Of a stretch of DNA of 64,000 nt, positions 39,872-64,000 are shown piece after piece; the stretch's first letter is position 1; every line of letters starts with the position of its first letter. The translations under genes and the position numbers were made by a program. The stretch is from [Phialemoniopsis] sp. UDSM-2020. Lineage: Eukaryota; Ascomycota; Sordariomycetes; Thyridiales; Thyridiaceae. The DNA lies in assembly GCA_018873225.1 (NCBI GenBank), contig JAEILZ010000007.1, forward strand, positions 2,542,001-2,606,000, written 5' to 3'. The notes beneath the pieces were generated by a model, which was not told the DNA's origin, searched no databases, and was given only the letters and a program-made list of their open reading frames with translations.

Positions 39872-41639
39872 ATGGAGGACCCAATCCTGACCTTCTTTAA
39901 GGATCTCCCGGACCCTGAGGTTGATCCATACAGCACTGTGTACCACAATGGAGAAGTGGCCACTCGCTACCGATCTGCCTTCAAAACCGTCATCGCCAGT
40001 CTCAAGGAGCATGCGCCTACTGATCCTGAGGATCAGATTCTTCAGAAGTATCTCGAAGACGTTCACACCCAAAAGATCAGCTGGATTGACGACATAGCCT
40101 GTTCGCTGGCTCGATTTGCACTGCGCAAGGATACCATTGACGGCCCTCTAATCAAGCGGCGGCAGCTTGCCTATTACCTCTGGGTTGCTAGAGGTCGCAA
40201 TAATGAGGACCTTTTCCTGACCAAGATCTCTGGAACCAGCCCAGCGATCATCTCCACCCCGAATGCTGCAGTTCACGAGTACCTTCCAGAGTACGATCTT
40301 CGAAGCCAGAAATGTGTTGTCTGCGGCAAAGACGCCTCTCTGACTTGCAATGATTGCATCCTCATCACCAATGGTCGCACAGTCTTCGCGACAACCTACT
40401 GCAGTGCAAACTGCAAAGAGTTACACCACAACTTCCACCACCGAGTCTGTCGGGATACACGAAGAATCGGTCGCGCAGCACCGCTCTTTGTGATGGCCTT
40501 CTACATGCTGGCCAGAGCTTCAATCTCTAAGACCTTTCTGGATGTCTCTGAGAAGCAGTCGATGGCTTTTGTGAGAATCATCAACACGACTAACGCGGAT
40601 GCTTACCAGGGCAAGGCTCTGTTGTATCCGTATCGTCCTGTGAAGGCGGACTCAGCACGACTTGTAGAGCAGGTCATGTTGTATAACTCGTCTCAAGCTG
40701 TTCATTCCCATGGTTGGCCGCTTCTCGAGCTCTTTCTGCGACGTAAGTACAACTGAGAAACCAAGTTATTCCCCTTTCTACTAGTCAAAGTCTAATAAGT
40801 ATCTCTCTTCAGCTATGTGCGAGTCCATCGACGCCATCGAGTACTATCCGAAGAATATGTCCCGGACTACCAACATGGGTGTTAGCCCACAACTTCCTCC
40901 ATTCCAGCACTTCAACGCATTCGCGGTCCATGAAGTGCTGCGTCTCAATCTGCACTCCGGTTTGCAATTGGCCTTTGACCCGGCATGTGTCCAATTCGGA
41001 TGGCAAGACTTCTTGACACCCTGGGAGACTTTCTCCAAGCATCGCATCCACAGAATCCTCCGGTCACCAACCGTCCAGGCCATTCAAGACGCGCAGTATG
41101 TGGACCGCGTGGGTGATGAATGTGCGGACCTTACAGACCCCAATGCCTGCATCCACTACCAGCAGGCCATCATTGGCGTCTTTGTGGCTCGGCAGATCCG
41201 GGCGAAGCTCAAAGGCTTCAAGTCCATCGCCACCATGCTCGACCTTCCGGTTGAGCTTTTCGGCAGAATCCACGAGATTGTCTGCACCACAACTGCTTCC
41301 GCTCTCCAGCACCAGGACAGTCTCTTTGAGGAGTTCCTGGGCAAGTCCTACTTTGACGCGGACTTTAACCTTCGTGCCACAACCAGCCTTGAAGAATACC
41401 AGGCGCTCAAGAATGTCTGGTTCAGCAAGGAGGAGTACCAGAAGTATGAGAAGGATCCTCTCATGCTTCGGATCATCTGGGGACAGCGATTCAAGAAGCA
41501 CTTCCCTGCCCAGGAGAAGGCAGAGGAGAAGGCAGAGGAGAAGGCAGAGGAGAAGGCAGAGGAGAAGGCAGAGGAGAAGGCAGAGGAGAAGGCAGAGGAG
41601 AAGGCAGAGGAGAAGGCAGAGGAGAAGGCAGAGGAGTGA
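39872..41639 (+). CDS. MYND-variant zinc finger protein, paralog 1
   Basis: Two exons, 39872-40742 and 40813-41639 (565 residues); donor GTAAGT, acceptor TCAG, join LFLR-PMCESI. Order of parts: start [20 protein letters not shown], shared by several paralogs; [12 protein letters not shown] (about 99-109); the zinc finger at 148-193 with spacing C-x2-C-x7-C-x2-C-x14-C-x3-C-x7-H-x3-C; YYPKNM just after the intron; [17 protein letters not shown]; and a helical C-terminal part ending in ten perfect KAEE units. MYND fingers normally bind proline-rich peptides of partner proteins; no SET, DNA-binding or catalytic domain is present, so a scaffold or adaptor role is an inference. This is one of six paralogs in the window. 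The cysteine spacing has one residue fewer between Cys2 and Cys3 than in the others. Confidence 0.88.
41517..41636 (+). repeat. 12-base minisatellite coding KAEE x10
   Basis: Ten tandem, near-identical 12-base units (AAGGCAGAGGAG) run up to the stop codon of MYND paralog 1, giving a highly charged Lys/Glu tail. Twelve-base units keep the frame whatever the copy number, so length variation between strains is expected to change tail length only. On the opposite strand it reads as a Leu/Cys hydrophobic repeat, which I regard as a shadow. Confidence 0.95.
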
Positions 41640-42536
41640 GTGGGCTTCGTCGAGATGAGGCTGAGGCCTCTGAAGGTATCGACTTGAAAGTACAGACGGA
41701 TGGCTGAAGCTTGCAGGGTAACAGACCCATAATTGTTCAAGCAAGCATCTCATGAAAGGCTGTGCATAAGTCACACTGAGACAGGAGGCTGTCATTGTTT
41801 GAGGTCATTGTTCTGAGGGCAGAACCTAATAATTCGAGGTATTGACAGTGTGAGGCAAGCAACCACAAGCTTTAGTCTCCTGGGTTTGCATAACTGAGTA
41901 GTGATTGTGTGCATGATCATGGTGGCAAACATGGATGGTGTGCTCCTAAGTCATAGGATAAATTGGCCTTCATCCCGCTTCTAAATCAAGATCATTCTAA
42001 CAGTTGTGATATACAATCCTCCTTTCCGGACAACCAGTATAGAAGACAGCAACGTGACATCACAAGAGAGACTGTCTACATCAGAATGAGTATATAAGAC
42101 CTCCATAAACAAAAGATATTCTTTGAACTTCTGTCGATTTTGTTCCAAGGCCTCTTCCACTTCATATCACTGACCTTAACATCAGACGAAATAGAAGGCT
42201 CTGAAACGCGTGAGTCACCAGGTCAGCTATCCTATCGCGTCTGCTTTGACAACAAAGCTTGCGCGTAAATGGTGGCGAATTTGTTTACTTATCGATAGAG
42301 AGGCCGTCGATTCATCCATGATCCAGCTTGACTTCGCTTCCCCATTCTACTTCCTTCCAGCCTCATCCTCCCCCCCTTGAGCCAGACTCCCATCTTCCAC
42401 CCTGGTCTGCCCCTATCCTCACCCGCCCTCCCTCCTCCATCTTCCACCTTTCTACCCTCCCTTTGAACATTGTTCAAGTTATATACCTCACAATTTGTAC
42501 AAATTCACACGAAAATTCCAGCACTTGGGCGACACG
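41640..42536. other. Intergenic between paralogs 1 and 2
   Basis: About 900 bases. The left part is ordinary AT-balanced sequence. No ORF. The right end holds the CT-rich leader of paralog 2 described separately. Confidence 0.5.
42345..42475 (+). promoter_or_regulatory. CT-rich leader/core promoter of MYND paralog 2
   Basis: About 130 bases of almost uninterrupted pyrimidine-rich + strand sequence ending roughly 60 bases before the ATG at 42537. Such CT tracts just upstream of the start are typical of expressed genes in filamentous ascomycetes and support the chosen start. Confidence 0.5.
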
Positions 42537-44278
42537 ATGGAGAGATTGCTCACGGGCAACGTCAGGCTCCCCGCCGCGGGGGAGGATCCAACCGCCGCTT
42601 TCTTCAAGAAGCTCCCGCCTGTAAGCTGGGATCCATATAATACGAGCGACAAAGATGCCATGCTGGACATTGTTGCTGCATTCGAACACCTACAGCTGTC
42701 AACCAAGGCAGGAAACGTAGCGTTCACTCGGTGGGGACGTGTCCTGCAGCAATTTGTGCAGGAACTCTACGAAGAGAAGCAAAACACCATTACTCGCTTG
42801 TGTGCCCAGATTGCACGAGTGGCATTGCAATTCGGGATTGAGTGGGCCAGCACTGATCAAAAAGACCACCTAGCATACTATCTGTGGATAGGAAGAGGCC
42901 GCAAGGATGAGCAGTCACCTTTCCGCAGCAACCTGACCCAAGCTGCAACCGACACCGAGGCGAAACCAGCCTCACATGCGATCCTCCCTCAGCCACCAAC
43001 ACTGTCAGCATGTGCACATTGTAATGCGGAGGGCGCCTCCCTCAAATGCGGTGGTTGCATTGTGCGTATCAGTGGGCACGTTGTCGTCGGAACCAGCTAT
43101 TGCAGCAAAGACTGCCAGATCCGTCACCGAAAGGCTCATCGTCCCACCTGCCATGAACTCAAGAGACTGGGCCGAGCAGCGTTCATATGCCAGGAGATCT
43201 TTACCCACTTCCTGGAGCTCACCTCCTCTGTGCTGGCCCGGAGTGTCTCAGAGTCAAATGGATTCACTGTTCTCTGCCGCGAGTTCGAGCAGCTGGGAAC
43301 AACCTTGATGGGCGAGCATGCTATCACTCCGTTCCAACCGAAGAGATCAGAGAGCGCTCAACTCACATCCGAGGCTTTGATGCTTAACTCCTGCAAGTTC
43401 CTGTTCCAGATTGGAAGACCATTTGTTGACCTCCTGCTCCGTCGTAAGTTGAGTTGGATTTTTTGCAAGTTGTGTTGGGACTACCTTGACTGATCACAAC
43501 TATATTAGCAACTTGCAAGTCTATCCAGAAGATAAGCTTCCTGCCCAAGAACATGCACAGACCTGTTAACTCGGGCTACGACATGAGGCATCTTGGCGGT
43601 CCCAACCGACGTACGGCTCTATACCCCTTGACAGAGTTCAACTCATTCAGCTCCCATGAGGTCCTACGATTGACTACCCGATCCGGTCAACGACTGGTCT
43701 TTGACCCGACGGGCCTCCAGTACGGTTGGAGAAACTTTCTCACAGATTGGGAAACATTCAGAACACACCGAGTCCACAACATCGAGTCCGTTGAGCAAAT
43801 CGAGCCAGTTTCTGAACGATACCAGCTTGGCCAATACACGGCATCCCGTCAAAACACGCCACAGGAGCAGGGCTCCCTGGACGCACAAGAGTTCATCATG
43901 GTCAATATGACTCTAGCCATGAAGAAGACCTTGGCTCAGCCGACACTGGAGGGATCCATGTCGGCCATGCTGGATCTCAAAGAGGCCGAGTTTGCCAATG
44001 CACAGGTCCTGCTGAGGCAGACAGCGTACGAGTCGCTGGACCGTGCTATTGAGAGCTGCAGGCTCTCAAGCAAGTTCAAGTTCTATTCGGACCCACACAT
44101 GACTATTCGGCTCACCAACAGCGCCGAAGAGTACAATTTGCTCAAGAAGGTGTGGCTTAGCCGCGAGGAATTTGATTCGGTCGTGGTGCTCGATGGAAGT
44201 CTGCAGACTGAAATGCTCAAAGTCTATAACGAGCGGTACGAGAAGCACTTCAAGCCCCGTTCTTTCGGCTTGAGGTAA
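42537..44278 (+). CDS. MYND-variant zinc finger protein, paralog 2
   Basis: Two exons, 42537-43443 and 43509-44278 (558 residues); donor GTAAGT, acceptor TTAG, join LLLR-PTCKSI. ATG at 42537 is the first in frame after the CT-rich leader. Parts: FFKKLPPVSWDPY near 22-34; HLAYYLWIGRGRK (about 111-123); zinc finger at 159-205 with C-x2-C-x8-C-x2-C-x14-C-x3-C-x7-H-x3-C; LPKNMHRP; a well-kept HEVLRLTTRSG...FDPTGLQYGWRNFL block; then WLSREEF and a C-terminal YEKHFKPRSFGLR. It lacks the charged repeat tail of paralog 1. The intron sits at the same codon and phase as in paralogs 1, 3, 4 and 7. Nucleus or cytosol; no signal peptide or membrane span. Confidence 0.88.
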
Positions 44279-44791
44279 CGGAGTGGGGGATGTCACTGTC
44301 GAGGGATGTCACGAGCTATGGAAGAAGCCGTGGAGAAGAGATCACAGATGTCATTGTGTCTTGTATGGGATATGTTTGGGAGGAAAAACGTGGTAACGAA
44401 GGGAAAGGGTCGAGTGTCCTTGAGTTTGCGGTGTTTACAAGGCAGCGGCAAAGTCTGACTGGAGGTGTGCAGTCTCATTGACGAGATTAGATTAATTAAC
44501 AGACTACCGCCGTTCGGAGATAGCTTCCACGACAATAATGTCTCAATTGCGTTGACTATGACACAGCTCCACTGAGAGACAATGCCGACCCTTCATTGAT
44601 GATCCTGCATGCCATGTATTCAACGAATATGAATGGAAGCGATGACCCCATGGCTACATGTACATTCCTAGTACTAAGCTCTATATCACTGATAAAGAAC
44701 CTCAACTCTCAAGGTTGTATCGCGTGCTGCGTTGCAGTCCTTGTTGTTGGTACACAGTCTCCTTATCATTCTGCTCCGCCGCTCGCCGGCT
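44279..44791. other. Convergent 3' region of paralogs 2 and 3
   Basis: About 510 bases between stops of the two facing genes. No gene seen. Confidence 0.5.
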
Positions 44792-46506
44792 TCAATCATG
44801 TGTTTCCGCCTCCGGAACTTGTTCTTCCTTTTCGGCCTCCGGAACTTGCTCGTCCTTTTCGGCTTCGGCCCACCGCTTCAGCCAAAGCTCTTGGAGCTTG
44901 TCAGGCTGATCCTTGTACTGTTCGTACTCTTGTTGGGTCAACCAGATATTCTTCATGGTATTGTAGGTCTCCTCGCTGTCCGCGGTGGTCTTCATGCGGA
45001 AATCTTTATCGTAGTACAGCCTGCGCTGTGGCAGCGCCAGTACAGCGGCAAGTGCTTCCTGGATCGACTTTTCTGCACATCTCATGATCTCTGCACGCGC
45101 CTCGGCGAATTCGGCGTTTTCAAGCTCCAAGACGCGCATGTCCAGGCTTTTCAAGATCGGGGAAAGCGGCCACATGTCCCGGACCGCGCCTTCGGTGACC
45201 ATGGCTAGGTCATAAAGGTGAACCCCATCGGGACGCAAAAGGTCCGTGTCATCAATGGCCCCTTCCCAATCGTCGGATCCCATTGGCTCGACTTGCTTCA
45301 CAAGATGGATGCGGTGTTGCGCGAATGTGTCCCAAGGGGAAAGGTAGTCTTTCCAGCCGTACTGCGCAGCAGTTGGGTCAAGAGCAACTTGCAACCCCGA
45401 AGGCATTGTGATACGGATCACCTCATGCAAGCAGTCACTGTTGAGGTCGTCCAGCGGCGGTGATTTTACTTCTCCTGTGTCGGATGCCGTTCCGTAGTTG
45501 ATAGTCCGGTGGATGTTCTTTGCAAGAATGACAAACAGTTCCGCAGACTGAATTGATGCTTTGAAGATCCATTCACCGTTAGCATGTTGTTTACTGGCTT
45601 GATGAATCAGACAGTATCGGGGTACTTACATCGGAAGAAGCGCTCGAAGAGGATCCGAGTTTCCTCCTTGGCTAGACTGCATTTGCAATTCATCAAGGTT
45701 TGAGCGGCCAGGTCCGGTGTGGCTGCTTTCTCGAAGTCGGCCGTCACAAGGCGATGCTTTCCTGTGAATGCCAGAGAGTGGATCTGCCCATAAATAGACA
45801 CGTTGACCCCATCCTTTTTGTAGATCTTGTGCCATGGCACCCCTTGAGCAAGTTTGAGTAGTTGCACAAGGATCTCTAGGTATAAAGAGCTTGCTCTTCC
45901 AACCTTGCGCCAGTCATAGCAGGTTGCGATGTGGGTCGGCCAATGATGGATGGAGCAGCTTAAGTCACAATAGACTGTGCTTGCAACAGTGTGCTGTTCG
46001 ATTCGTATGACGCAGCCGCTGCATCTGAGCGACGCTTGCTCCTTGGAGCAGTAAGAGCACTTCTTGGAGTTCGGATCTCGAGGAAGAAATCGATGAGAGA
46101 TGGTGGTTTTGGGTAGAGGCTGAATGAGCGAACCGTCCTGGGAGAATGGGTATTCCTCCGTCTTGCGGCCCCTTGCTGTCCAGCGATAGTACGCGAACTG
46201 GCGTTGTTTTTCCACTGACTTTTCTTCGAGAGGGTCCCGAAAGAGCGCTAAGGATTGAAGAATTGAACAAAGGTTGGTGATCCTTGCTTTACGCTGACGT
46301 ACCTTGTCGTACAGAATGTTGACCGCCTCCAAGAGTGTCTCTGCGTCTGTGTCTGACGACTCGGTCGTCTTTGCCTGGATACGGAGGCTGGCGATTGCAT
46401 CGGCATATGCCATTGTGGTAGAGTCATCACCAATACAGGTCCCGGTCCAGGGGTCAGTTTCAGGATGTGGTAGAGATGCAAAGAACATTTGAACTGGGTC
46501 TTCCAT
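44792..46506 (-). CDS. MYND-variant zinc finger protein, paralog 3
   Basis: Two exons, 46506-45630 and 45558-44792 (547 residues); donor GTAAGT, branch GCTAAC, acceptor AAAG, join FFR-SSIQSAEL. The ATG at 46506 gives MEDPVQMFFASLPHPETDPW, matching the start of paralog 1, so these two look closely related. QFAYYRWTARGRK is at about 103-115. The zinc finger is at 150-196 with the same spacing (x8 and x14 loops) and all eight ligands. LAKNIHR, then HEVIRITMPSG, LDPTAAQYGWKDYLSPW (Leu replaces the Phe of the motif) and WLTQQEYEQY follow. The tail is acidic and contains a nine-residue unit repeated twice (EQVPEAEK-like). Inverted relative to paralogs 1 and 2. Confidence 0.87.
44808..44861 (-). repeat. 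27-base direct repeat x2 in paralog 3 tail
   Basis: Two adjacent 27-base units (44808-44834 and 44835-44861) differing at two positions encode a duplicated nine-residue acidic segment just before the stop of paralog 3. It is a second, independent case of tail growth by in-frame tandem duplication in this family. Confidence 0.85.
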
Positions 46507-46974
46507 GGCTATATTTCTTGACGGGTTGATGGGGAAGACGGACGACAAGAGTCTAGAATAAGGGTCCGATGAATGCTTTGATGTGTGTGAACAGGGAGGA
46601 AATGCTCATCAACACATCGACTTTGATGTTGGCATGGAAGCTGCTAATGAACGGATGGTGAACAGAGGAAGGAGCGCCCATCCTAGCTGAAGCGCCGTCG
46701 CCTGGGCTGTACATGAAAAGTCGGAGTCGGAGAAGGAGCATGAGAGCCTAGTCTTGATTATCAACGAGATGCTTCAAGATTCAGCATTCGACCCTCGAGG
46801 ATGAGTAGTTCGTAAAGAAATAGCGATCTCGAGTAAAATTTGACTGTGATCACCAACTCGGGGCATGTAACACGGTTGGATATGGCTCCATGCAACTTGA
46901 TCAGTGATGAATGGACAGACAGATATTGCCGTCCAGTCGCTCATTCTCTGATTAATCTATGCACATCGTACGAA
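46507..46974. other. Intergenic between paralog 3 and the Zn2Cys6 gene
   Basis: About 470 bases upstream of paralog 3 (-) and downstream of the regulator gene (-). Presumed promoter; nothing specific seen. Confidence 0.45.
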
Positions 46975-49183
46975 TCATATTAGCGGCACGGGAACGACGT
47001 CTCTCGATGCCTCGGCCTTGGCAACAGCATGGCTCGCCAGCCTCACCAGCTCCGTCACGAACCCCTCTACCATTTGCAGGTTCGCAAGCTCGTTCGAAGT
47101 CCAGTCACGGGATCCCATACGCTCACGCAGGTCCGGAGCCAAGTTGAGCAAGTGCAGATCCTCTCGAGCCCGGGAGTGGAGAGGATGCATCAGTATGGAC
47201 GAGAACACAGTGAGAATGGCAGACATTGGGTAGAATGCGACGAGCCTAAGGCGAAGAGTCAGCGAGTTGTAGCCCGCGAGGAGGATCCATCCTCGGGAGA
47301 ATCAGTGAAATGCCAGTCTTACCAGAAAGCGTCTTCGAAGAGAAAGTTGATGGTCCGGCGAAGATAGAAGATCGTCGTGCGGCTGGCCTCAACAGACATG
47401 GAAAGGCTGGATCCAAGGCCATCGACCTCGCCGCTTTCCCCGTGGATCCAGGCACGACACCGGCCGACAGCTCTGTGAATTGTGGCCACCAAGTAGTGAT
47501 ATTCGAAATGGATTATGGTGCAGTGCATAATTTGAGGGTGCGGCAAATCTAGATCGATCTGCTGATCCGGCGAGTAGAATAGCTGGGGCCGGTTGTGCGC
47601 GGGAAGAGAGATCCGCCATCGCTCCAACTCTTCGTCGAGCTCTCGTATGTCTTTGACCACGTCGGCATCGAGCTTGCGCAGTGCATTTGCAGAGTAAAGC
47701 ACCTTGTAGGCTTTTGATTTGATGAGGGACAGGCGCAAGTCTCCGGGTAGCCAAGGTGCCTCCGCCTCTTCCAGCAAAGACGAAGGATACTCATGAAACC
47801 GATGCACGGTCTCTAGGTACCCAGCTGGAAACGTCAGATCGCAATGTTCATCCTCTATGGTTGGTGGAAGCCCTGTTCTAAGCGCCATGTCTTTGTCAAA
47901 GGTGTAGCACAGCCAAAAAAGCTTGCGAATGTGGATTTTGAGTCTCCAGTCCAGATTTTGTTCTCGGTCCTGCGGCGCTTGACCGTAGTCTTGTGTGGGC
48001 TGAATGTGTCCACCGAGCATGAAGACCATGCGGCACGCAAGCGTATGGGTCTTCAGGGCTCCAGCCATCCGGCCCGTGAACAGGTGATACATGGTCGTCA
48101 CCGATTGTTAGCACCAGTCATGAGAGCTCGAGATTGGAGACTTACCAGAAGAAGCATGGTTTCCAAGGCGATTAGTGTGGTATCTTGTAGAAGGTAAGGG
48201 AGGAGGTGTTCCGCCTTTGAGGCACAAGCATCTCCATCGATGTCGGGCTTAAGATCACGGAACTCTATCCGTGCGACGGCAATGAGTGCCAGGAATGCAA
48301 AGATGCCAGTCTTGGCAGAGATGGCCTCCAGGCCAGGTTCGCCGTTGGGGTAGTCATATGCCGCATCGATTGTGTTTTGGAAAAGGACAAAATCGACAAT
48401 GGGAAATACTAGCTTGAAGTGGGATGCCCGATAGGCGTCGAAATAGATCTGGACAATGTCTTTGGAGGGCAGGTCTAGATTCGAACGCGCCAGAGTGAAA
48501 TCGCGGAGCATCGATGGGGTGAAGACTCTTGTTTTCCTAGGGGCCTCAGTGAGGTCAATCATGTTGGACCTGACATCTTGGCCGGTCCGTGATTTGATCC
48601 ACTTCCGTCCATGTACGGAAAAGAGCGGTATGCCGCGATACGAGCTGATCTCTCCAAGCTGATAACCAGCGAAGTGCATCTGCCCAAAGGCGGGTCGCGG
48701 AGAAGAGAGTTGTCCCGTCGGTACGGGGGAGTGATTGGTCAGGGTTGTGGTGGAGGGCGCATCCCTACCACAAGCACGTGGGTCCGAAACATCGGAGCCA
48801 GAAGAAGGCGTGGCTCCGACCGGGCTTTCGGAAGCAGAAGGGTCCAGATCTTGATTAGGTTTGTTCCTATGCATCCACTGGGATTAGTCGTCGATCTATG
48901 CGGCTCGTACGCGGCTGAGGTGCCGAGATACTTGACGCGACGCTAAGATGGAAACACCCGTGAGACTCACCTTGTCCGTTTCGTCTTCGTCTTCGTGACA
49001 CGTTTGCTCGCCCAGTTATATGTGCATGCTAGACCGTGATGCTTGCACCAATTACACTGGGGGACTGCGTTGTCGCAATGGATCTTGGGTCGACCTTGTC
49101 AGTGTTCTAATCCACTCAGTCCTCCGATGATAGCCACATACCTTGTTGTTGTGACAACAGTCACAAGCTTTTCTTCTAGCCAT
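46975..49183 (-). CDS. Zn(II)2Cys6 transcription factor
   Basis: Five exons proposed: 49183-49142, 49083-48971, 48866-48146, 48101-47323, 47245-46975 (641 residues). The binuclear zinc cluster is split by intron 1: ARRKACDCCHNNK joined to IHCDNAVPQCNWCKHHG and LACTY, with spacing C-x2-C-x6-C-x6-C-x2-C-x6-C, followed by a basic KTKTKRTR linker. The middle-homology (fungal-specific) region shows FDAYRASHFKLVFPIVD, then ACRMVFMLGGH and RKLFWLCYTFDKDMALRTGLPP. These factors usually bind CGG triplets. Intron 3 has a good donor (GTAAGT) and a GCTAAC branch, but no AG where homology requires the acceptor (it would end CG at 48102), so this exon border is uncertain and the gene may be impaired. It is divergent from the PDR transporter, a common arrangement of local regulator and target. 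Confidence 0.82.
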
Positions 49184-49476
49184 GATTGATTCTGATGAGA
49201 TAGACTTGTCGCTCCTCGGTCATGCAGCCTGCAGACTGTTGTGTGGGTCGTATACGCAATGAGAATAAGAAGGTCGACCGAGGGTCTACGGCATTTGCCC
49301 TGCGGCCTATTTGTCAAGCTTTTGATGGTTAGTGGGGTGGCTCACGTACATCAAAATGTAATCAAAAAGAGCGAAACCCCGAGGGCGGACCTACCGGAAG
49401 GACGCACGTAGGGAATGGGTTTCTTCAAGGCTGCTACGCGAGATGGACGTGTATGAGGTTGGAGATGACGCTGCAT

Positions 49477-49497
49477 TGCCGATGACTAATCGCTGAA
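49477..49497 (+). repeat. 21-base direct repeat, copy 1
   Basis: Exact copy of the sequence at 49899-49919, with core CCGATGACTAATCGC. Flanks differ at once on both sides, so the identity is confined to 21 bases, which suggests a protein-binding element rather than a recent large duplication. Confidence 0.8.
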
Positions 49498-49898
49498 ATG
49501 CTGGCCTGACCCACCCGTATGGGGGAAAATACTGACCCCCTGTAGGGTATGCTGCTGCGCTATGCCAGGTGATGGAATAGCAAAGCTCGGCCATTTCAGC
49601 ACTAGTCGGGGTGTCGAAACTTAAGCCTACCCGCTAGACGAGACCTAAGCCAAAGCTAGTTTCGGGATGGCAGTGGGCCGGAGTGGGGCCGTCTGCTCCG
49701 GAGGATGCTTCGATTCCCACCAGGCAGGAAAAAGACATAATGATCGGACATAAGTTGGTCCATCCAAAACGCGAGGGCGACAGACTCGTGCCTGTGCAGA
49801 GCCTCAATCCCGCAGGGTCTTTCGTAAGGCTGTCCTCTCCACAAACAGTGACGGCTCTTTGATTAGTATTAATATGGAGAGGACCCCTGGATCCGGGC

Positions 49899-49919
49899 TG
49901 CCGATGACTAATCGCTGAA
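49899..49919 (+). repeat. 21-base direct repeat, copy 2
   Basis: Second exact copy, 422 bases from the first and about 310 bases upstream of the transporter start. Confidence 0.8.
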
Positions 49920-50003
49920 CCGCCGTGTCGGTCCCGCTGTCAATGACGGCTACCCTTATCTACGCGAATTCGCAATATGAAACTAAGAGTGGTGACGGAG
50001 TGA

Positions 50004-50015: not shown

Positions 50016-50031
50016 TTTCGCCGTTGAGATC

Positions 50032-50228: not shown

Positions 50229-53200
50229 ATGCAGTCCGAAGCGTCTACCCTGGCGGTGCCAGAGGGCCCCGTAGCCAGCTCTGACACCTCAGACGTCTTA
50301 CAAGACGAGAAGACATGGGCACTCGAATGGAAGGTCAAGCAGAAGCGTGAACGGGAGGAGAAGTCCGGCATACCACCGAGACAGCTAGGTGTCACTTGGG
50401 AGAATCTCACGGTCAAGGCCGTGGCCAACGATGCAGCCATCCACGAAAACATGGCTACTCAGTTCAACATCCCCCGAGTCGTTCGCGATGCGAGACAGAA
50501 GCCTCCCATGAAGACGATTCTCGACAACAGCCATGGATGTGTCAAGCCTGGAGAAATGCTTTTGGTCCTTGGCCGTCCGGGATCCGGCTGCACCACTCTC
50601 CTTAGTGTGCTGGCCAATCGCCGGAGGGGATATGCCTCTGTCGAGGGTGATGTCTCCTATGGAAGCATGAAAGCCAGCGAATCCAAGAATTACCGCGGAC
50701 AAATCGTCATGAACACCGAGGAAGAGCTCTTCTTTCCTACCCTCACTGTCGGCCAAACGATGGACTTCGCGTCGCGACTCAAGGTGCCCTTCAAGCTCCC
50801 CGATGGATATACATCAAAGGAAGAGATCAGACAGGAGAACTTGGACTTTCTCCTCGAGTCTATGAGCATCGCTCATACGCATGGAACGAAGGTCGGAGAT
50901 GCTTTCGTGCGTGGTGTCTCTGGTGGTGAGCGCAAGCGCGTCAGCATCATCGAGTGTATGGCCGCGCAAGGCTCGATTTTCTTCTGGGACAACAGCACAC
51001 GAGGTCTGGATGCGAGCACGTAAGTCATCTAATCTATATCATCATGCGCTTATCTTTACGATATCTAATCTTTATCAGGGCTTTGGAATGGACGAAAGCC
51101 ATCCGGGCTATGACGGATGTTCTCGGGCTGTCAACTGTTGTTACCCTCTACCAGGCCGGCAACGGCATCTACAATCTCTTCGACAAGGTCCTATTGCTCG
51201 ATGGTGGCAAAGAGGTTTACTACGGTCCAAGGGAACAGGCTCGACCTTTCATGGAGAACCTTGGATTTATTTGCCGCGAGGGAGCCAACGTCGCCGACTT
51301 CCTGACCGGTGTCACCGTTCCGACGGAGCGAAAGATCAAACCTGGACATGAGAGAACATTTCCTCGCACGGCCACTGCACTCAGAGACGAGTACGAAAAG
51401 ACAGACATCAACACCCAGATGATTGCCGAGTACCAGTACCCAACGACAGATGAAGCCAAGGAAAACACCAGGGCGTTCAACGAGGCCATCGCTTCAGAGA
51501 AGAACCCCCGCCTACCTTCGGGAAGCCCTTTCACTGTGAGCTTCAAGGCTCAGATCAAAGCCTGTGTCACTCGACAGTATCAGATTCTCTGGGGCGACAA
51601 GGCCACATTCGTGATCAAACAAGTAGCCACCATCATCCAGGCCCTGATTGCAGGATCGCTATTCTATGACGCGCCAAACAATTCCGGCGGTCTCTTCTCC
51701 AAAAGTGGCGCCCTATTCTTCGCGCTCCTCTACAACTGCCTTCTCGCGATGAGCGAAGTGACCGATTCCTTCAGCGGGCGCCCTGTACTCCTGAAGCACA
51801 AAGCTCTGGCATACTATCACCCGGCCGCTTTCTGCTTTGCACAAATCACGGCCGACATACCCATCATTCTCTTCCAGATCAGCACATTCTCACTTATCCT
51901 CTACTTCATGGTTGGCCTCACCACGAGTGCTTCCGCATTCTTCACATTCTGGGTCATCCTTTTGGCAACAACGATGGTAAGTTCCAATATCGTGTGATTC
52001 AAGTATTTGGGCCTGCATAATGACTGACATTTTCTTGTTCGCAGTGTATTACCGCCATGTTCCGCGCTATCGGTGCTGCATTTGGCACTTTCGACGCTGC
52101 ATCAAAGGTTTCAGGTCTGGTCATCGGCGCTGTTGTCATTTACAGCGGCTACATGATTCAAAAGCCGCAGATGCATCCCTGGTTTGTCTGGCTATTCTGG
52201 ATCAACCCTTTGGCTTACGCATTCGATGCTCTACTGGCGAATGAGTTCCATGGCAAGACCATTCCATGTGTCGGTCTCAACCTCATTCCTAACGGGCCTG
52301 GGTATACCGACTCTGCAGCTCAGTCTTGTGCGGGTGTCCTTGGCGCAATCCAGGGGGAGACGTCTGTTCAAGGTGATAACTATCTCTCGGCTCTTCGTTA
52401 CAGCCACAGTCACGTCTGGAGAAACTTTGGCATCATCTGGGCCTGGTGGGCTCTCTATGTCTTCATTGTCGTGGTCTTCACCTCTCGATGGCGTTCGTCC
52501 TCCGAGTCCGGACCGTCCCTGCTTGTTCCCCGCGAGAAAGTCAAGGTCGCCGCTCACATCCTCCAGAATGACGAGGAGACTCAAGTCGGGGACGAAACTG
52601 CCGTCTCTAGCAATGAGGATCAGAGAAGGGAGAAGGACAGCTCCCAGGCGGAAGGCCAACTTATTCGGAACACATCTATCTTCACTTGGAAAAACTTGTC
52701 TTACACCGTCAAGACTCCGTCCGGCGACCGTCAGCTTCTGAATGACGTGCAAGGTTGGGTCAAGCCAGGCATGCTTGGAGCCTTAATGGGAGCTTCTGGG
52801 GCGGGAAAGACCACCCTGCTTGATGTCCTTGCTCAGAGGAAGACCGAGGGAACCATTCACGGATCCATCATGGTTGACGGACGACCCCTCCCCGTTGCCT
52901 TCCAACGTTCGGCAGGATACTGTGAGCAGCTCGATGTACACGAGCCATTCACAACAGTTCGAGAGGCATTGGAATTCTCTGCTCTTCTGCGCCAAAGCCG
53001 CAGCGTGTCTCGTGAGGAGAAGTTACGCTACGTTGATACGATCATTGACCTTTTGGAGCTCCACGACCTGGCCGACACTTTGGTGGGTAAAATCGGCGCC
53101 GGCTTGAGTGTTGAGCAGCGAAAGAGGGTCACCATTGGCGTTGAGCTGGTCGCCAAGCCAAGCATCCTGATCTTTCTTGATGAGCCCACCTCCGGCTTGG

Positions 53201-54582
53201 ACGGGCAATCGGCTTTCAACACTGTACGCTTCCTGAGGAAGCTGGCCGACGCAGGCCAGGCGGTTCTTGTTACCATCCACCAACCTTCCGCGCAGCTCTT
53301 TGCAGAGTTCGACACACTCTTACTCCTGGCCAAGGGTGGTAGAACCGTTTACTTTGGAGACATTGGCGATAACGCACAGACTGTGAAGGACTACTTTGGA
53401 AGATATGGAGCACCCTGTCCTACCGAGACAAACCCAGCAGAGCACATGATCGACGTCGTGTCTGGCCAGCTTTCGCAAGGCAGGGACTGGGCGGAGGTCT
53501 GGCTAAGCTCTCCCGAGTACGATACTGTGACCAAGGAGCTGGACAACCTCATCACCGAAGCGGCTTCGAAGCCTCCTGCCTCGCACGCCGACGATGGCTA
53601 CGAGTTCGCCATGCCGCTGTGGGACCAGGTCAAGATTGTCACTCAGCGAATGAACCTCGCCCTGTTCCGCAACACTGACTACATCAACAACAAGTTCGCT
53701 CTGCACATATCGACTGCGCTCTTCAACGGCTTCACTTTTTGGATGATCGGCGACTCGGTGTCGGACCTCCAGCTGCGCCTCTTCACTATCTTCAACTTCA
53801 TCTTTGTGGCTCCCGGTGTGATCGCCCAGCTGCAACCCCTGTTCATCGAGAGGCGGGACATCTTCGAGACGCGCGAGAAGAAGTCCAAGATGTATTCATG
53901 GATTGCCTTCGTCACTGGTCTTGTCGTATCCGAGGTCCCATACCTCTGCGTGTGCGCAGTCTTGTACTTTGTCTGCTGGTACTACACCGTCGGCTTCCCC
54001 AGCGATTCCGCCCGTGCAGGCGGCACTTTCTTCGTCATGTGGCTGTACGAGTTCCTATACACGGCGATCGGCCAGGCAATCGCTGCCTATGCGCCGAACG
54101 AGGTCTTCGCCTCGCTCATCAACCCTCTCGCCATCGGCATCCTTATCTCGTTCTGCGGCGTGCTGGTGCCGTACACCCAGATCCAGCCCTTCTGGCGCTA
54201 CTGGCTCTACTACCTGAACCCGTACAACTATCTGATGGGCAGCATGCTCGTCTTTGACCTGTGGGGCACCTATGTCACCTGCAAGGACCAGGAGTTCGCG
54301 CTGTTTGACCCTCCCAACAGCACGACCTGCGGGGAGTATCTCTCGGGCTATATGCAGGGAATGGGTGCCGGATCGCGGCTGGTCAACCCGGAGGCCGTCT
54401 CTGGTTGCCGTGTCTGCCCTTATCGCGATGGAAGCGATTACCTGCGGACCCTCAACCTATTGGAATATTCCTACGGCTGGCGAGACGCTGGTCTCGTGGC
54501 TGTCTTTGTGGCCAGCTCTTACGCCATGGTTTATGCCCTTATGAAGCTACGGACAAAGGCGTCCAAGAAGGCTGAGAGCTAA
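50229..54582 (+). CDS. PDR-type ABC transporter (ABCG full-length)
   Basis: Three exons: 50229-51019, 51079-51976, 52045-54582 (1408 residues); joins read LDAST-ALEW and TTM-CITAM. ATG 50229 is chosen because upstream residues from 50145 resemble leader. Layout NBD1-TMD1-NBD2-TMD2 as in Snq2/Pdr5/BFR1-type drug pumps of the plasma membrane. NBD1 has Walker [10 protein letters not shown] (115-123) with Cys for Lys, signature [10 protein letters not shown] and WDNSTRGLD in Walker B. NBD2 has intact Walker [10 protein letters not shown], degenerate signature [12 protein letters not shown] and [13 protein letters not shown]. This asymmetry is normal for the family. The extracellular end of TMD2 carries a Cys-rich segment ([12 protein letters not shown]...[13 protein letters not shown]) typical of the group. 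AATAAA lies at 54759-54764. Probably controlled by the divergent Zn2Cys6 factor. Confidence 0.96.
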
Positions 54583-55355
54583 GGGTATTACGGACCTTTA
54601 TCTGATACTTGTCTGAAAACGCGGCGAGTCTTTGTGATCTCACCGCTCTTATCATTAATAATTTCGTTTTGTTACTTGGTTTGGGGTTGGAAATTATCAG
54701 GAAATATGCATAGACTACATAGAACATAGAGGTTGGCGTACCTTGTCTTTCAGGATAGAATAAAGACTTGAGTTGTTTAGAAAACATGACCACACTTAAG
54801 AAAAATGGGCAATGGTTTTGCCAGTTGTCAGCCTTGCTAAAAGACTCACAGTCTCAACATTCTGCTTTGCGAATCGTCTTTACAAGAGCAAACCCAGGAA
54901 CTCTGGTTATGCTAACTAAAAGTGTTGAGTCAGAGTTGAGTCAAACTGCACTGTGTAGAGACACCTTTGTTACTGAACGCAGAGTGAGAAGTTTCTTGTG
55001 ACCAATGTGTGAGTGGAAGTGGGTCCTCAGCCTCCTGGCGAGGATACTATATCCAAGCAAGACAACAAGGAGCTCACATTTCCCCTCCACTACATTACCT
55101 AGGTTGGAACCTTTCTTTGAGCTGCAGTCCAGGCACTCAAATCTTTTTGCACGCGTTATAAATCAAACCAAGCACGCCAATGTGCGCAAACGCGTCCTCC
55201 CCACCTCCCACAAAAACACTCACACAACCTATCTCACACCCGTTCACCTCGCGTTCACCTCACGTTTCCCTTACTTCATCCCACTTCTATCATCCTCGTT
55301 TCTCCTCTCTCTCTTGACAAGAAAAAGACGAATCTGAACAGGTCTACGATCAATC
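54583..55355. other. Intergenic between transporter and paralog 4
   Basis: About 770 bases: transporter 3' UTR with AATAAA at 54759, then a promoter. From about 55190 to 55310 the + strand is CT- and CA-rich, the leader of paralog 4. Confidence 0.5.
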
Positions 55356-57192
55356 ATGGACGTGCCCGACCCGGTCACCATACTGTTCACCACCTTGCCC
55401 TGGCCACACTGGCTGGAGAAGAGCACTCCTGAAAACCAGGCGTTGGCATCGCTCTTCGATACTTCCATGCAGGTTTTCCTCTTGAACTCAAAGAGGTCTG
55501 AATCTAAGGATGCGGATTCGCCCTACCTGATCAAGCACGCTGAGAAGGCCCAGGACAAAGCCAAGCCGGCGCTCTACTTCTATACCCAGATCGCAATCCT
55601 CGCGGCGTCCAAGAAGGACATCGATGGCGACGGACCCAAAGCACAACAGCTGAGATACTACCGATGGGTTGCGCGGGGCCGAAAAACCTACGATTGGCCT
55701 TTGGATCTGGGCGACAAGCCCACAGATGCAGATGAAGTCAGCACCTCAGAGTCCCTGAGCTACCTTGCCGACTTTGTGGTCGACAAGCATGAATGTGCAT
55801 GCTGTGGACAAGAGGGAGCTATTCTGAAGTGCTCAGCCTGTCTTGTCCGCCACGGTAGCAAAGTGATTGTGGCCACTTACTACTGCAACGCAGAGTGCCA
55901 GCTTAACGACCTCGAGGAGCACAAGCCCTACTGTAACGACATGATCTGTCTCAATCGTGCCACTTCTCTTTTTCAGGAGATTTTCATGTACTACCTCAAC
56001 GTGGCAAACTCCCGCCTGCTCCTCAGCAGCTCGGATGAGGACGGCATGAATGTTGTCAAGTATGACAGCCGAGACGCCATGGCCTTTCAGGGCAAATTCA
56101 TTCTCCAGCCGTTCGCTGATGAGAATTGCGACACGGTTGAGCTTGCCTCGGAGACTTTGGTGAACAAAGAGTCGCACACAGTCATGGAGCTGTGCAGACC
56201 CCTCTTCGAGCTCTTCTTTCGAGGTAAGAAATCCTCTCAACTATCAGATGGGCTCATGTGGAGTTATTGTCCTGGAGACTAACAGAGAATTGCTAGAGAT
56301 GTGCCAGCCCTTTGTTACGGCGATCGAACACATGGTCTTCTACCCCAAGAACATGCATCGCCCTATCCTTTCTACTAGACTCGCCGATAAAAAATTGTTG
56401 ACACACATCAAGAGTCTGAACTCTGTTGGAAGGCACGATGCATTCTGCATCACTATGAGATCCGGACTCCAGATGATGTTCGACCCTACAGGTGGCCAGT
56501 TCGGCTGGAAGGACTACCTGACCCGTCGGGATACCTACATGGAGCACCGCGTTCATCGCCTGGTCTCGTTGGAAGACGTACCGAGCGCGGAAGAGGATGT
56601 CACCTACCAGGAGTTCCTTGAAAACTTGAAGGTTGTCCCGACAGGCATGTACTGGAGGCCCAAGCCGGCCGTCAACCGCATGAAGTGGATTTTGTCCGAG
56701 TTTATGTGCGAAAGCTTGAAAAAGTTGTTTCAAGTTACGGCCAAGGCTGCTGAAGTCGACAACATTATCGACATCGACAGGGACAACTTTGCTCAGGCCC
56801 GCGAGACCGCCATAGACTTCGCCGGCGAAATACTCCGCTTCAAGTTTGAGAAGTACTGGCACAGCGGGTTGTACCGGCTCTACTACGACCCCATGCTGCG
56901 AATGTGTACCACCGAGTGCGAGAGGGACTCGTCCATCATGGACGACGGAGTCTATTTCACGGAGGAGGAGTACACCCACATCAGGGGCCACCGCCGTCGC
57001 CTCCAAAAGTTGTGGGCAGACCGGTTTCAGTTACGCTACGACCGTATGGAGAAGCTGGAGCAGAAGCACGTCCTCAACGCTGCCCTGAAAAAGGCCACCA
57101 TGGTTCTCGAGAGAAAGGAGCAGCAGGAGAAAGAGGAGAAGGCAGAGCAGAAGAAGATTCAGCCGGCTCAGCAGGCTGAGCAGGATCCCTGA
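55356..57192 (+). CDS. MYND-variant zinc finger protein, paralog 4
   Basis: Two exons, 55356-56223 and 56297-57192 (587 residues); donor GTAAGA, branch GACTAAC, acceptor CTAG, join FFR-EMCQPF. Parts: short start with ILFTTLPWP; QLRYYRWVARGRK (about 98-110); zinc finger at 147-193, C-x2-C-x8-C-x2-C-x14-C-x3-C-x7-H-x3-C; FYPKNMHRP; FDPTGGQFGWKDYLTRRDTY; a helical C-terminal region with YFTEEEYTHI and LQKLWADRF; and a Lys/Glu/Gln-rich tail, non-repetitive compared with paralog 1. The C-terminal part is longer than in paralogs 1-3. A decayed family fragment lies about 425 bases downstream on the same strand, as if from tandem duplication. Confidence 0.88.
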
Positions 57193-57617
57193 ATGTGGGT
57201 AACATTTGGGGGTACGCGTGGTATGTATACCACGGAAGGGGTCCATTTGTTGTTCTTTTTCTCCTTTCCGTTTTTCTTCCTTTGGAGTGGAAATGTTGGA
57301 CAATGAGACCTGTCGAGACTTGGAGGAAAGGATTGACAATCAGTTTTGTCGACATGTGAGGAACGATTTGAGTATCTGAGAGCCAAGTTGGCTTGAGTTC
57401 GGAGAGAGAGTTTCCATTGTCACTACAACTGACTTCATGGACCATGGGCTTTGTCGGCCCCCTAGGGCTAGGGAAGGGCATTGAGGTCCAAAGACACAAT
57501 CAGCTAGGCTGGCTTGAGCTTTGAAGCACTAAAAGCACTCACGATAATAACATTGCATTTTCACTGAGCAGCAGCCTGCCTGTCTCCGCTCTTCTTGACG
57601 GGGCACTAACCTCTCCT
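57193..57617. other. Spacer between paralog 4 and relic
   Basis: About 425 bases with no readable family sequence; the missing 5' part of the relic copy has been lost or is unrecognisable here. Confidence 0.45.
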
Positions 57618-57915
57618 GACTGGCCGCCATGCGACCATCAACATCAACAACCCTGATGAGTTCAAGCAGGCTCGAGATCGCCTCTTGCAGGCAGGCAAGG
57701 CTGCCGCCGGTCCCGCGGCGGATGCAGCTCGCGCGAACCCGACCTATCGGACCTACATCACACGGCGGGGAATGATGAAGCGCGTCGGATCGCAGGAGAT
57801 GTACGACAAGATGAAGCAAGTCTGGCTCAGCGATGAGGTCTACGAGCAGGTCAAGGACGACCCCGCCGAGCTTAGCAAGCTCTGGATCGAGCGGCTCGGC
57901 AAGGTCGGTCTCTGA
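57618..57915 (+). pseudogene. 3' relic of a MYND-family paralog
   Basis: An open stretch of about 98 residues ends at TGA 57915. It matches only the C-terminal end of the family: INNPDEFKQARDRLLQAGK corresponds to the EDFSIAQDRIIKDCK region of paralog 6, and KQVWLSDEVYEQVKDDPAEL with SKLWIERLGKVGL closely follows QVWLDPNVYEQLKDKPKEL with HRLWFKRLHKVGL in paralog 6. Zinc finger, intron and FDPxxxQxGW block are absent, and an in-frame TAA lies just upstream. It may have come from a paralog 6-like gene, not from neighbouring paralog 4. An ATG at 57685 could start a 76-residue protein, but expression is doubtful. Confidence 0.75.
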
Positions 57916-58325
57916 GCTTGCGTGTTGGTGTTGCTCTCGGCAATGCATTTGTCTAAATGTCATCACATGCTGTGATAGATGCTGAGATTCTCGGTGTGGA
58001 GGAAGGAGAAGGAATGGGGTTATGAAAATCGAGCTGAGCTACTTGCTCATCTCATCAGCTGCATTACACGATGCAGCAATGATGATGTCTACCGCGCCTG
58101 GCAGTAATATTGGTCATTATTCGACCTTGGTGAGACTTTGTCTCCAGGAATGCCAACTGAAAAGGCCTCAGGAGCCGACATGAGCTACTAGCTAGTTTTC
58201 ACACAGATAATGCATTGATTTCCTGATTTTTTACTGTTCCGTGTACAGACGAGTGCCACAAGATTAAATCATACGAATGCCAACGAATCCAGATACTGAC
58301 GAAGGTCATTCATTAGCTAAACAAG
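57916..58325. other. Intergenic, convergent
   Basis: About 410 bases between the relic and the stop of the kinase gene (-). Nothing recognised. Confidence 0.45.
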
Positions 58326-60200
<1,875 letters not shown>

Positions 60201-62006
60201 CTAAAGGAAGAAGGAAGCGACACCCGGCGGCATGTGGCCGGGAGAACCAGGAATGTTCTGGTAGAGTCCAACCTTGTGAAGGCGTTTGAACCACAACCGG
60301 TGAAGTTCCTTGGGCTTGTCTTTCAGTTGTTCGTACACATTTGGGTCGAGCCAGACTTGGCCGAGCTTCTCAGCTTCCTCAGCGACCCCAGCAATCTCGG
60401 GAGCCAGGAAGCTGTTCAAGAAGAATCGATTCTTGGCAGTGGGGTACCATTTGGTAGCCCAGGTATCGATTGCTTCCTTGCAATCCTTGATGATACGGTC
60501 TTGCGCAATCGAGAAGTCTTCCTCGTTGAGGCTCAAGATGTTAAACAGTCCTCCTCCCTTCGCGAACTCCTTGTTGAGAACATCTGTCAGGTCTTGCGTA
60601 GTCAAAGTACGGTTCAGACAGATATCGAGCACCTGGTGGGTCGGCCCCATTCCGTAACTTGCTCGGTAGAATTTGTCCTTTTCCTTCCTGGCGATGGAGT
60701 TGGCAGCGGCCGTGGAGATGATGAGCTCAATTCGGTGTTCTTCGTAGGCTCCCCAGGGAGTGATGAGCTCCGACCAGCCAAACTGAGCGCCGACGGGGTC
60801 GAAAGCGAGGTCGATTCCCGAGTCCGTTTTGAGACGAAGCAGTGCGTGTGGCTCCATGGATACGATGTGCTTGACGATTCCAGATTTGTCAGCATCCAGG
60901 TTGGAGACCGGTCGCTCTACGTTCTTGGGGAGCACAGTTACCCGCTGGATAGTCTTAACTAAGGGGAGCGAGGCTGATTCGCGGAAGATACCACCCCATT
61001 CGATGCGCATTCCCATGAAGAAGACCTCCAGCAAGTTTTCGACGGTGTCCAGGGCCTCGCGATACTGTACGGCCATGAGGGATGTCAGGGCCGCCTCAGG
61101 ACTAGGAGCAAGATGACCGGGGAAGCGGTGGAAAGCGGAGCCTCCGGTGTAAGCTTTGGCCTCGAGGCTCGCCAAAGTGTTGATGAGCAATCCGTTCTTC
61201 TCAGAAATGCTCTTGAATTCGTGATAGTTCAGCATGGTGAAATAGTGAACCAGCAGGTCAGCGAACATAGGCGCCACACGACCAAGGCGCTGCATCTCTT
61301 CGCAGGCAGCAGTATGCTCAGTTAAATGGGCGAGCCTGCAAGCTTTGTCGCAGTAGGCCTGTCTGAAAGTGCATCGGCTGTCCTTTCGAATAATGCAATT
61401 GTCGCAATTATGATTGGCGCCGCTCTTGCCGCAGTGCCCACAGTTGGATGGGAGAAGGGTGGTAGGGATATGCTTGTGCGACACTGCATTGTTGGGTTTG
61501 GGGATCGTGTGGAAGGGGTTGTCTTCGTCCTTTGCGCCGAGAGCGAGCCACTTGTAGTAAGCCAAGTGCTCAGACTTCTTGTCGGCGATATCGCCGTTGG
61601 GGCGCTCGATACCAGATGACTTGCTGAGAGCAATGGAAGCCAGTTCGCCGATGAAGGCTATGGTGTTGACCTTCATGTGAAAAGTCTCAGCGGCTACGCG
61701 GAGACGCTCTGCATCAGGATCGGAAGTTTGGCGAACTTCGAGAGCATCTGCAAAACACTGGATGGCGCAGTAGTATTTGAAGGTCGTGGGTTTTGTCTCT
61801 CCCATGAGCATCCTTGTGAGCTCAGCAGACTCAAGATCAAGATGAATGCAAGCTTCAGCGACCAGCGACGGGTAGGGATTGGTTTTAGGATCGGGCAAAC
61901 ACTTGAAGAGAATAGTCGCCGGATCAGCACCCGCTTGAAGCATCGCTACGGCCTCAGTCGCCATCATCCGGTCCCAGGTCTGGGAAGTAAGAGTGGTGAT
62001 GTCCAT
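60201..62006 (-). CDS. MYND-variant zinc finger protein, paralog 6, intronless
   Basis: Single exon of 601 residues from ATG 62006 (the frame stays open to 62195, without ATG). Parts: FKCLPDPKTNPYP (about 34-46); HLAYYKWLALGAK (about 147-159), a weaker copy of the YYxW motif; zinc finger at 189-235 with C-x2-C-x8-C-x2-C-x14-C-x3-C-x7-H-x3-C and all ligands; LPKNVERP; FDPVGAQFGWSELITPW; QVWLDPNVYEQLKDKPKEL and LWFKRLHKVGL at the end, then a Pro/Gly-rich tail. At the place where the other paralogs have an intron, this gene reads through with about 15 extra residues (GMRIEWGGIFRESAS). The tail is not charged like in paralogs 1 and 4. Most divergent member. Divergent from paralog 7. Confidence 0.87.
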   Translation of the reverse strand: MDITTLTSQTWDRMMATEAVAMLQAGADPATILFKCLPDPKTNPYPSLVAEACIHLDLESAELTRMLMGETKPTTFKYYCAIQCFADALEVRQTSDPDAERLRVAAETFHMKVNTIAFIGELASIALSKSSGIERPNGDIADKKSEHLAYYKWLALGAKDEDNPFHTIPKPNNAVSHKHIPTTLLPSNCGHCGKSGANHNCDNCIIRKDSRCTFRQAYCDKACRLAHLTEHTAACEEMQRLGRVAPMFADLLVHYFTMLNYHEFKSISEKNGLLINTLASLEAKAYTGGSAFHRFPGHLAPSPEAALTSLMAVQYREALDTVENLLEVFFMGMRIEWGGIFRESASLPLVKTIQRVTVLPKNVERPVSNLDADKSGIVKHIVSMEPHALLRLKTDSGIDLAFDPVGAQFGWSELITPWGAYEEHRIELIISTAAANSIARKEKDKFYRASYGMGPTHQVLDICLNRTLTTQDLTDVLNKEFAKGGGLFNILSLNEEDFSIAQDRIIKDCKEAIDTWATKWYPTAKNRFFLNSFLAPEIAGVAEEAEKLGQVWLDPNVYEQLKDKPKELHRLWFKRLHKVGLYQNIPGSPGHMPPGVASFFL

Positions 62007-62741
62007 GGTGTTACCAAGATCCACGTTCTGGCCAAAACCCAGATTGAAGAGCAAGGAGTCTTGATCTGCAGGACCACAGTAGTGTCGACTTGAAGGTGCG
62101 AGTAAGATCAGAGATGGAAGTGTGATGGTAGTAATATGTGGAGGGTATTTGGCGTGGCCAAGGGGACTTGGTGGAATGCTCTTGAATCGTACCAAAGTTG
62201 AAAAGGCACGATGACAGAGAGAGATGATTCAGAGAGCAGTGAGACCGTTGAATAGGAAGAGAATTCAAGGAATTTGGGAGTGTATGGCAGCTAGAGGTTT
62301 GCTGAATGATTAATAGCACACTCTTGCTTTCAATCAGCAAAGCCTATGCTTGAAAGGGGACAAGAACTGCCTTCCAAATGATCGACTGAATCACCTTTTT
62401 GCGGGTAGGCCTGCTTGCAAGCTTGAGGTGTTTGTTTGAAGTCTTTGGCCTTTTTCTCACTTTGTCATCAAGACAAACTCAATCTGCAGCTGTCTGTTAC
62501 ACCAACTTTCCCAAAAGGCCGTTTGCCATCCTTTGATCCTACTGATGTCACCACCAGACTGACAGCATTCTCTTCCCAAACTCTTTATCTCTCAGCTCCT
62601 GCGGTCGTTTGATAATCTGATGAGCAAATCTATCATTTTACACGCGCGGCACTGCTCTAGGCAACAGACCACTTCCCTCTCTGAAACAAATACTGAACAA
62701 CAGTAACACGCACCGCCAGAGAAATCTTCAAATCCGGCAGC
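62007..62741. other. Shared promoter, paralogs 6 and 7
   Basis: 735 bases between divergent starts. CT/CA-rich near 62500-62600 on the + strand, likely the leader of paralog 7. No gene of its own. Confidence 0.5.
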
Positions 62742-64000
62742 ATGAGCACCAGAAAGGGCTTCAAGGTGTTTGAAGGGGATGAAGTTGACAAGGCCCTTGA
62801 GAACCTGAAAAAGGAGCATTGCCTGCCCTTGAGCTTGGCTGAGAAGAAGATCGAGCCACTCCAAGTCCTATTCTCGCGACTACCTCCTGTTAACGCGGAT
62901 CCCTATCCATACTTTCTGCATGAGACGGTGACCACTGACGTGGAGGTTGAAGGCAAGGTCATCATTGCTGGAGCGAATAAGACGACCGTCAAGTACAGCC
63001 AAGCAGTTCAGGGTTTTCATGACGCCTTTAAGCTCCATGGCTCGGCTGGTGACGCGAAGTCAGCTCTCCTTCGCGTGGCCCTTACTGGGAATGGGAAAAA
63101 CGACATCATTCCCTTCATCAACAAGCTCGCTTCTCTAGCCATCGACACGCCCAAGGAAGTGGTCAGGGATGACAGCACCTTGAACGGCGAGCAACTCGCG
63201 TACTATGCCTGGATCGCACGTGGTCGAAAGGACGAAGAGTCTCCTCTCCAGGGCAACACCATTCCCGCCAATTCAAACTCGCATGCTTTTCTTCCAGATA
63301 TCGCTCATCCAGAGAAGTGCGATCATTGCGGAGCCCAGGGACACCTTCAAAACTGCGCAGGCTGCTTTGTCAAGGAATCTGACCATGTCATGTTCAAGAC
63401 TTCCTACTGCAGCAAAGCCTGCCAGACCGAGGGTTGGAAGAAGCATAGGGCATACTGCAGAGACATTCAACGTCTTTCGAGAGCCACGGCTTTGTTCCAG
63501 CAAATCTTTGTCCATTTCCTTGGATCAGCATCTTGCGACACTCTGGCTGAGATTTCCGAAGAGGAGGGTGTCATTGTTGCGAAATACAACAAGTGCGGAG
63601 CCGTCGCCATGAAAACCTCCGCAAACCACGGCCCACACGTCTCTGATGCCGCGAAAGCCGTACTGATGGCATCGAACTACAACATCATCGCGAAGTCCTA
63701 CAAAGAGATTCTAGAGTTGCTTCTTGGCGGTTAGTTCCACCTTTTGATCTTTTGAGTAAAGCATGAGTACTAACATATGGTCAACTCAGGTAACCTCAAG
63801 CACATGTGGAGGGCCACTTTCATTCCGAAGAATGCGCACCGGGTGGTGAAGCAGACCGGATGCGGTGATGGATCCCCCGAGTTCTACAACTCTCTCTGGA
63901 TGCATGAGGTCATACGTCTTACAACCCACTCAGGAGTTGACATTGCCTTCGATCCAACAGGTGCTCAGTTTGGCTGGCGGGAGGTCATATCGCCTTGGGC
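62742..64000 (+). CDS. MYND-variant zinc finger protein, paralog 7, cut by window edge
   Basis: Exon 1 at 62742-63729 and exon 2 from 63790, continuing past the right edge; donor GTTAGT, branch ACTAAC, acceptor TCAG, join LLGG-NLKHMW. The first 399 residues are visible. Parts: a longer N terminus (about 40 residues before LFSRLPPVNADPYPY); QLAYYAWIARGRKDEESP (about 151-168); zinc finger at 193-239 with C-x2-C-x8-C-x2-C-x14-C-x3-C-x7-H-x3-C; FIPKNAHR; HEVIRLTTHSG; FDPTGAQFGWREVISPW at the edge. The intron is at the same position and phase as in paralogs 1-4. By the YYxW-to-finger distance (40 residues) it pairs with paralog 6, its divergent neighbour, whereas paralogs 1-4 have 45 to 48. Confidence 0.87.

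Follow-up and report, generated by a model that had tools for sequence, protein, structure and literature searches.

MYND fingers bind short proline-containing motifs, and SamB/Mub1 is a described fungal MYND protein that lacks any catalytic domain. Mub1 contains a MYND domain and works with Ubr2 (excerpt of PMC3567142), and in fission yeast it is characterized by an Armadillo-type domain, with the finger at residues 471-528 (excerpt of PMC8645331). High and variable zf-MYND counts are already known in fungi. According to excerpts of the respective papers, counts reach 41 in one of a table's ten columns (PMC4469406), Moniliophthora perniciosa has 25 gene models (PMC2644716), and a contracted family is mentioned elsewhere (PMC5602860). 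Here, a cluster of MYND genes was analyzed in [Phialemoniopsis] sp. UDSM-2020, whose genome comprises 44.18 Mb in 11 contigs. The cluster was studied in a window of 64,000 nucleotides (contig JAEILZ010000007.1, herein referred to as C9; C9:2542001-2606000) and in the adjoining DNA; member coordinates follow window numbering. Its seven members, A to G, probably represent an old tandem family that evolves by birth-and-death and encodes intracellular MYND adaptors of ~550-600 residues, the diverged copies having different partners.

The high, variable copy number of MYND proteins is shared with the expanded zf-MYND sets of other fungi. Those sets, however, are domain counts, and the excerpts of PMC4469406 and PMC2644716 describe no single full-length family arranged as a tandem cluster. 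Searches of the open-licence literature found no description of this family or of any tandem fungal MYND cluster. In contrast to fission yeast Mub1, the finger of these proteins is located in the first 40% of the chain (residues 189-235 of 601 in E) and is followed by another conserved domain, while no Armadillo domain was matched by Pfam at E<=1 in the pieces scanned. The sole database relative found was E0L32_005396 (herein P0001), an uncharacterized protein of 612 aa from Thyridium curvatum (Sordariomycetes), which shows 54% identity to E over 98% of E. It resembles E in the finger, the C-terminal block and a comparable extra stretch at the position of the intron; it differs in that one member was found there, known from the protein alone, compared with seven here.

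Homology and Organization of the Cluster

Gene models were spliced by GT-AG introns within long open frames (Table 1). The six spliced proteins A-F served as tblastn queries, with G as a target only. Each query found all other members (best E per query-target pair 1.2e-19 to 4e-71), and the homology spans nearly the whole length. Pairwise identity among the seven copies of the genome is 23.2-31.4%, and the long frames stay intact at this 23-31% identity. A phase-1 intron of 54-73 bases occupies an identical place in six of the seven genes (A, B, C, D, F, and G). The gene for E is intronless, with 16 extra residues (about 331-346) at this place. The extra stretch of E and the Thyridium relative may be an exonised intron, or else an intron may have been missed in the Thyridium annotation.

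A tree was built for eight proteins (A-G and P0001) under LG+C20 with a midpoint root. Its sole resolved deep split separates A-D from E, F, G, and the Thyridium protein (support 99/98), and E joins the Thyridium protein with support of 100/100. Gene order along the chromosome matches these two groups (A-D and E-G), as expected from tandem duplication. Given the midpoint root, the identity and the firm joining of E and P0001 suggest that several copies predate the split from Thyridium, and no fewer than three lines (E, F/G, and A-D) would already have been present before it. The alternative of rooting on the Thyridium branch, along with much faster change in the other copies, still has to be reckoned with; it is mildly disfavored by the absence of the intron in E and, as annotated, in the relative.

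An earlier note on this window had described six homologous MYND genes, strongly diverged along their whole length and differing in orientation, with a decayed copy and unrelated genes among them and the last member cut by the window end. All these features were found: open frames lie at the six places, all linked by tblastn, although two of the positions listed (44792 and 60201) are the 3' ends of minus-strand genes. Against the family profile, the stretch 57193-58300, which includes the relic, scored 64.5 bits, compared with at most 9.5 bits in 100 shuffles of two-base blocks. The predicted continuation of the cluster amounts to one more gene, G. To the right of G, no additional member was found across the following 26 kb, and the family profile detected no further members in 29 kb to the right and 10 kb to the left of the window.

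Two members are truncated. The profile match of F ends at position 479 of 524, the last ~45 positions being gone, while G is devoid of the first ~70. These losses flank a 0.6-kb stretch, 64466-65105. The DNA between F and G is single-copy in the genome (E 1e-5); therefore, no repeat insertion was found there that would account for both truncations. Additionally, member A contains at 41512-41636 a perfect 12-bp tandem repeat of 10.4 copies, which encodes a C-terminal (EEKA)n tail, possibly variable in length between strains.

Table 1. Cluster members, relic, and neighboring genes.
Feature	Position	Strand	Protein	Details
Member A	39872-41639	+	565 aa	Exons 39872-40742, 40813-41639; MYND residues 148-193
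Member B	42537-44278	+	558 aa	Exons 42537-43443, 43509-44278; MYND residues 159-205
Member C	44792-46506	-	547 aa	Exons 46506-45630, 45558-44792; MYND residues 150-196
Member D	55356-57192	+	587 aa	Exons 55356-56223, 56297-57192; MYND residues 147-193
Member E	60201-62006	-	601 aa	One exon (62006-60201); MYND ligands C189...C235
Member F	62742-63729, 63790-64466	+	554 aa	Crosses the window end (64000)
Member G	65106-66527			Seventh family copy; 1.1 kb beyond the right window edge
Relic	57610-57912	+		Open frame; matches only profile positions 435-521 of 524 (E 2.3e-18)
HET-domain protein	37274-39415	-		PF06985; adjoins the cluster on the left
Fungal transcription-factor domain gene	47322-48874	-		Inside the cluster; PF04082 in frame 47322-48092; adjoining frame 48101-48874 without Pfam match, presumed part of this gene
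PDR-type ABC transporter	50229-54582	+		Inside the cluster; three open frames
Protein kinase	58326-59722	-		Inside the cluster; PF00069 in frame 58949-59722; frame 58326-58799 without Pfam match, presumed part of this gene
RRM-like gene, then NBR1-like gene	From 66801			Right of G; labeled by eye from open frames

The MYND Finger and the C-terminal Block

All eight zinc ligands (C4-C2HC) are kept in all eight sequences, A-G and P0001. The finger has 46-47 residues, seven or eight more than the 39 positions of the PF01753 (zf-MYND) model, for which the Pfam cut-off is 22.7 bits. When the six window members were scanned as proteins, B, D, and F exceeded this cut-off; A (22.6 bits) and C (20.6 bits) fell below it. 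The six-frame genome scan listed A, B, C, D, F, and G over the cut-off, these six being part of 16 finger matches genome-wide; E was missing. Eight of the ten finger loci outside the cluster (~3.1 kb each, all except C4:2510766 and C9:1865575) were read in six frames and matched the family profile about the finger only (positions 133-200; best E 1.3e-4).

The lack of a catalytic domain beside the finger, also claimed earlier, holds by Pfam: no domain other than MYND was over the cut-off in the members scanned, and no SET domain (SMYD type) was matched at E<=1 among the ten pieces scanned. The C-terminal block, however, may be a degenerate transglutaminase-like fold. It follows the pattern H-x15-D-P-x3-Q-x-G-W, in which D403, P404, Q408, G410, and W411 are invariant in all eight sequences and H387 is found in seven. 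Its H...DPT..Q[FY]G core is one we take to be transglutaminase-like in look. In predicted structures, the block bears a weak resemblance to transglutaminase-like amidases such as NTAQ1, namely to their His-Asp half. Protein-glutaminase shares the fold group of these amidases. The likeness to NTAQ1 and protein-glutaminase comprises a predicted fold that may be weakly similar and a His-Asp spacing of 16, identical to that of NTAQ1, whereas a conserved catalytic cysteine and any sequence match are lacking.

Thus, the Cys-His-Asp triad of the transglutaminase-like/NTAQ1 amidases is not found in the family. Besides the zinc ligands, no cysteine is conserved across the eight sequences, and E has none between residues 235 and 463. 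The PF09764 model had no matches in the genome at E<=1 and none in the eight C-terminal blocks at E<=10. Searched against PDB sequences, the full profile yielded no more than weak matches, mostly MYND fingers (best E 0.092), and the C-terminal block yielded two chance-like ones (best E 0.68). No match under E 0.35 was found in a viral structure library. We regard it as a tentative possibility that the C-terminal domain is degenerate and transglutaminase/NTAQ1-like, with a papain fold, and that the members are MYND-tethered pseudo-amidases, which bind but do not cleave the ends of peptides or peptides containing glutamine. It is unlikely that the whole array works in this way, with a dead NTAQ1/transglutaminase-like pocket reading a peptide end or glutamine motif and passing the ligand to a finger-bound partner, each paralogue having a ligand of its own.

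Broken Copies and Selection

Two genome searches, in which first-look candidates only were scored, used B and the C-terminal block of P0001 as queries. They gave 14 and 9 matches, respectively, consisting of the cluster and of broken pieces at three sites elsewhere in the genome (C5:4259.5 kb, C8:384.2 kb, and C8:2222.4 kb). Among the scored candidates, the family is represented by this cluster and fragments only. The piece at C5:4259472-4259709 matches part of B at 76-80% of bases. The match includes the intron end, and the piece was therefore copied as DNA rather than via RNA. The pieces at C8:2222 kb correspond to A over 138 bases (83%) and to D over 161 bases (86%).

For the two latter pieces, nonsynonymous (dN) and synonymous (dS) divergence was compared. 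The values were dS 1.0, dN 0.061, and dN/dS 0.06 for A (45 codons), and dS 0.70, dN 0.062, and dN/dS 0.09 for D (53 codons). Such low ratios tell against relaxed or diversifying selection, in those two stretches only. Most of the differences arose at a time when both copies were coding; hence, the two pieces derive from diverged functional relatives that were broken late.

The family pieces on C8 lie within two islands of scrambled gene fragments, 5-10 kb long (C8:2222036-2227300 and C8:380700-390350). The islands consist of shuffled 40-540 bp pieces, at 69-95% identity to genes of eight contigs; donor loci recur in shuffled order. At C8:380700-389200, 32 of 33 DNA matches are non-self (69-95% identity, some overlapping) and come from contigs C1 and C4-C10. 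Matches from other contigs make up 15 of 17 at C8:2224000-2227200, and five of six at C8:2221812-2224095 are non-self. Runs of (TA)5 or longer number nine in C8:2222301-2226984 and five in C8:380753-390831, compared with two across the 103 kb surrounding the cluster. A codon-phase test was applied to 53 aligned pieces, some overlapping (46 with at least 10 mismatches), from 22 donor loci and the cluster. On average, mismatches favor one codon phase (mean 0.518 vs. a null mean of 0.435, the highest of 2000 draws being 0.464). Piece by piece, the bias reached p<0.05 in 16 of 51 tested, and many pieces are without it. On average, the island pieces look as though many derive from diverged coding genes that were broken late.

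Alternative Explanations and Significance

The birth-and-death history that the earlier note had read from this locus agrees with the tandem copies in both orientations, the relic, the two end-truncated members, and the broken copies at three places. A young or fast-evolving family is not favored, since the close relationship of E to the Thyridium protein and the low dN/dS of two stretches would both speak against it. The searches run revealed neither ordinary single-copy orthologues nor a well-described family, either of which had been named as contrary to that history, and the dN/dS comparison suggested there could be made for the short stretches of A and D only. In the old tandem family proposed here, a full-length copy would consist of a helical N-terminal domain, the MYND finger, and the conserved C-terminal domain. 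The finger would bind short peptide motifs in partner proteins, as its domain content suggests. A second binding surface would be formed by the C-terminal domain, whose fold is possibly papain/transglutaminase-like and catalytically dead, and diverged copies would serve different partners.

Several points weigh against this explanation. The adaptor role is drawn from domain content, and the family is known here from genes alone. E was not scored as MYND in the Pfam protein scan, though it keeps all ligands. Three of the five inner tree branches are without resolution, A, D, and F are long branches, and the age of the family would depend on the midpoint root. The dN/dS evidence comprises two short stretches. 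The structure models are of middling confidence, with a mean predicted local distance difference test score (pLDDT) of 62.7 and 62.5. Finally, the protein searches reach close relatives only: two profile searches, each among the 7999 candidates sharing most words, returned P0001 as the only result, and a search with residues 303-400 of B gave 11 candidates and no match. The search tool requires shared exact words; therefore, rarity of the family does not follow.

It seems improbable that self/non-self or another arms-race recognition, as for fungal HET/NLR genes, drives the divergence. Tandem copies, copy loss, the HET-domain gene adjoining the cluster, and the perfect repeat behind the possibly variable tail of A would all suit it, and a root on the Thyridium branch would make the other copies young and fast. 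However, dN/dS is low in both measurable stretches, the copies would be older than the Thyridium split if the midpoint root is true, and no HET or other recognition domain was found in the members' Pfam matches up to E 1. Quite improbable is the decay of most copies with E, the copy with a recognized relative, alone functional: having diverged to ~25% identity, A-D and F still hold frames of ~550 residues, their splice sites are correct and no zinc ligand is lost, and short stretches of A and D are constrained, even though F has lost one end and G the other, the relic and fragments are present, and a database relative above 50% was found for E alone. The least likely explanation is that the members are SamB/Mub1-like ubiquitin-ligase adaptors, which the UniRef name of P0001 ('Suppressor of anucleate metula') and the work of Mub1 with Ubr2 would suggest, but against which stand the different place of the finger, the missing Armadillo match, and the look of that name as a domain-based transfer.

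The probably old tandem family of putative MYND adaptors presents, as it stands, a solid but ordinary case of gene-family evolution. The family is an uncharacterized fungal one, whose domain order Pfam describes no further than the finger. Its compact locus allows comparison among seven natural variants as well as with a relic and broken copies. If the C-terminal fold is true, a pseudo-enzyme would be added to MYND adaptors.
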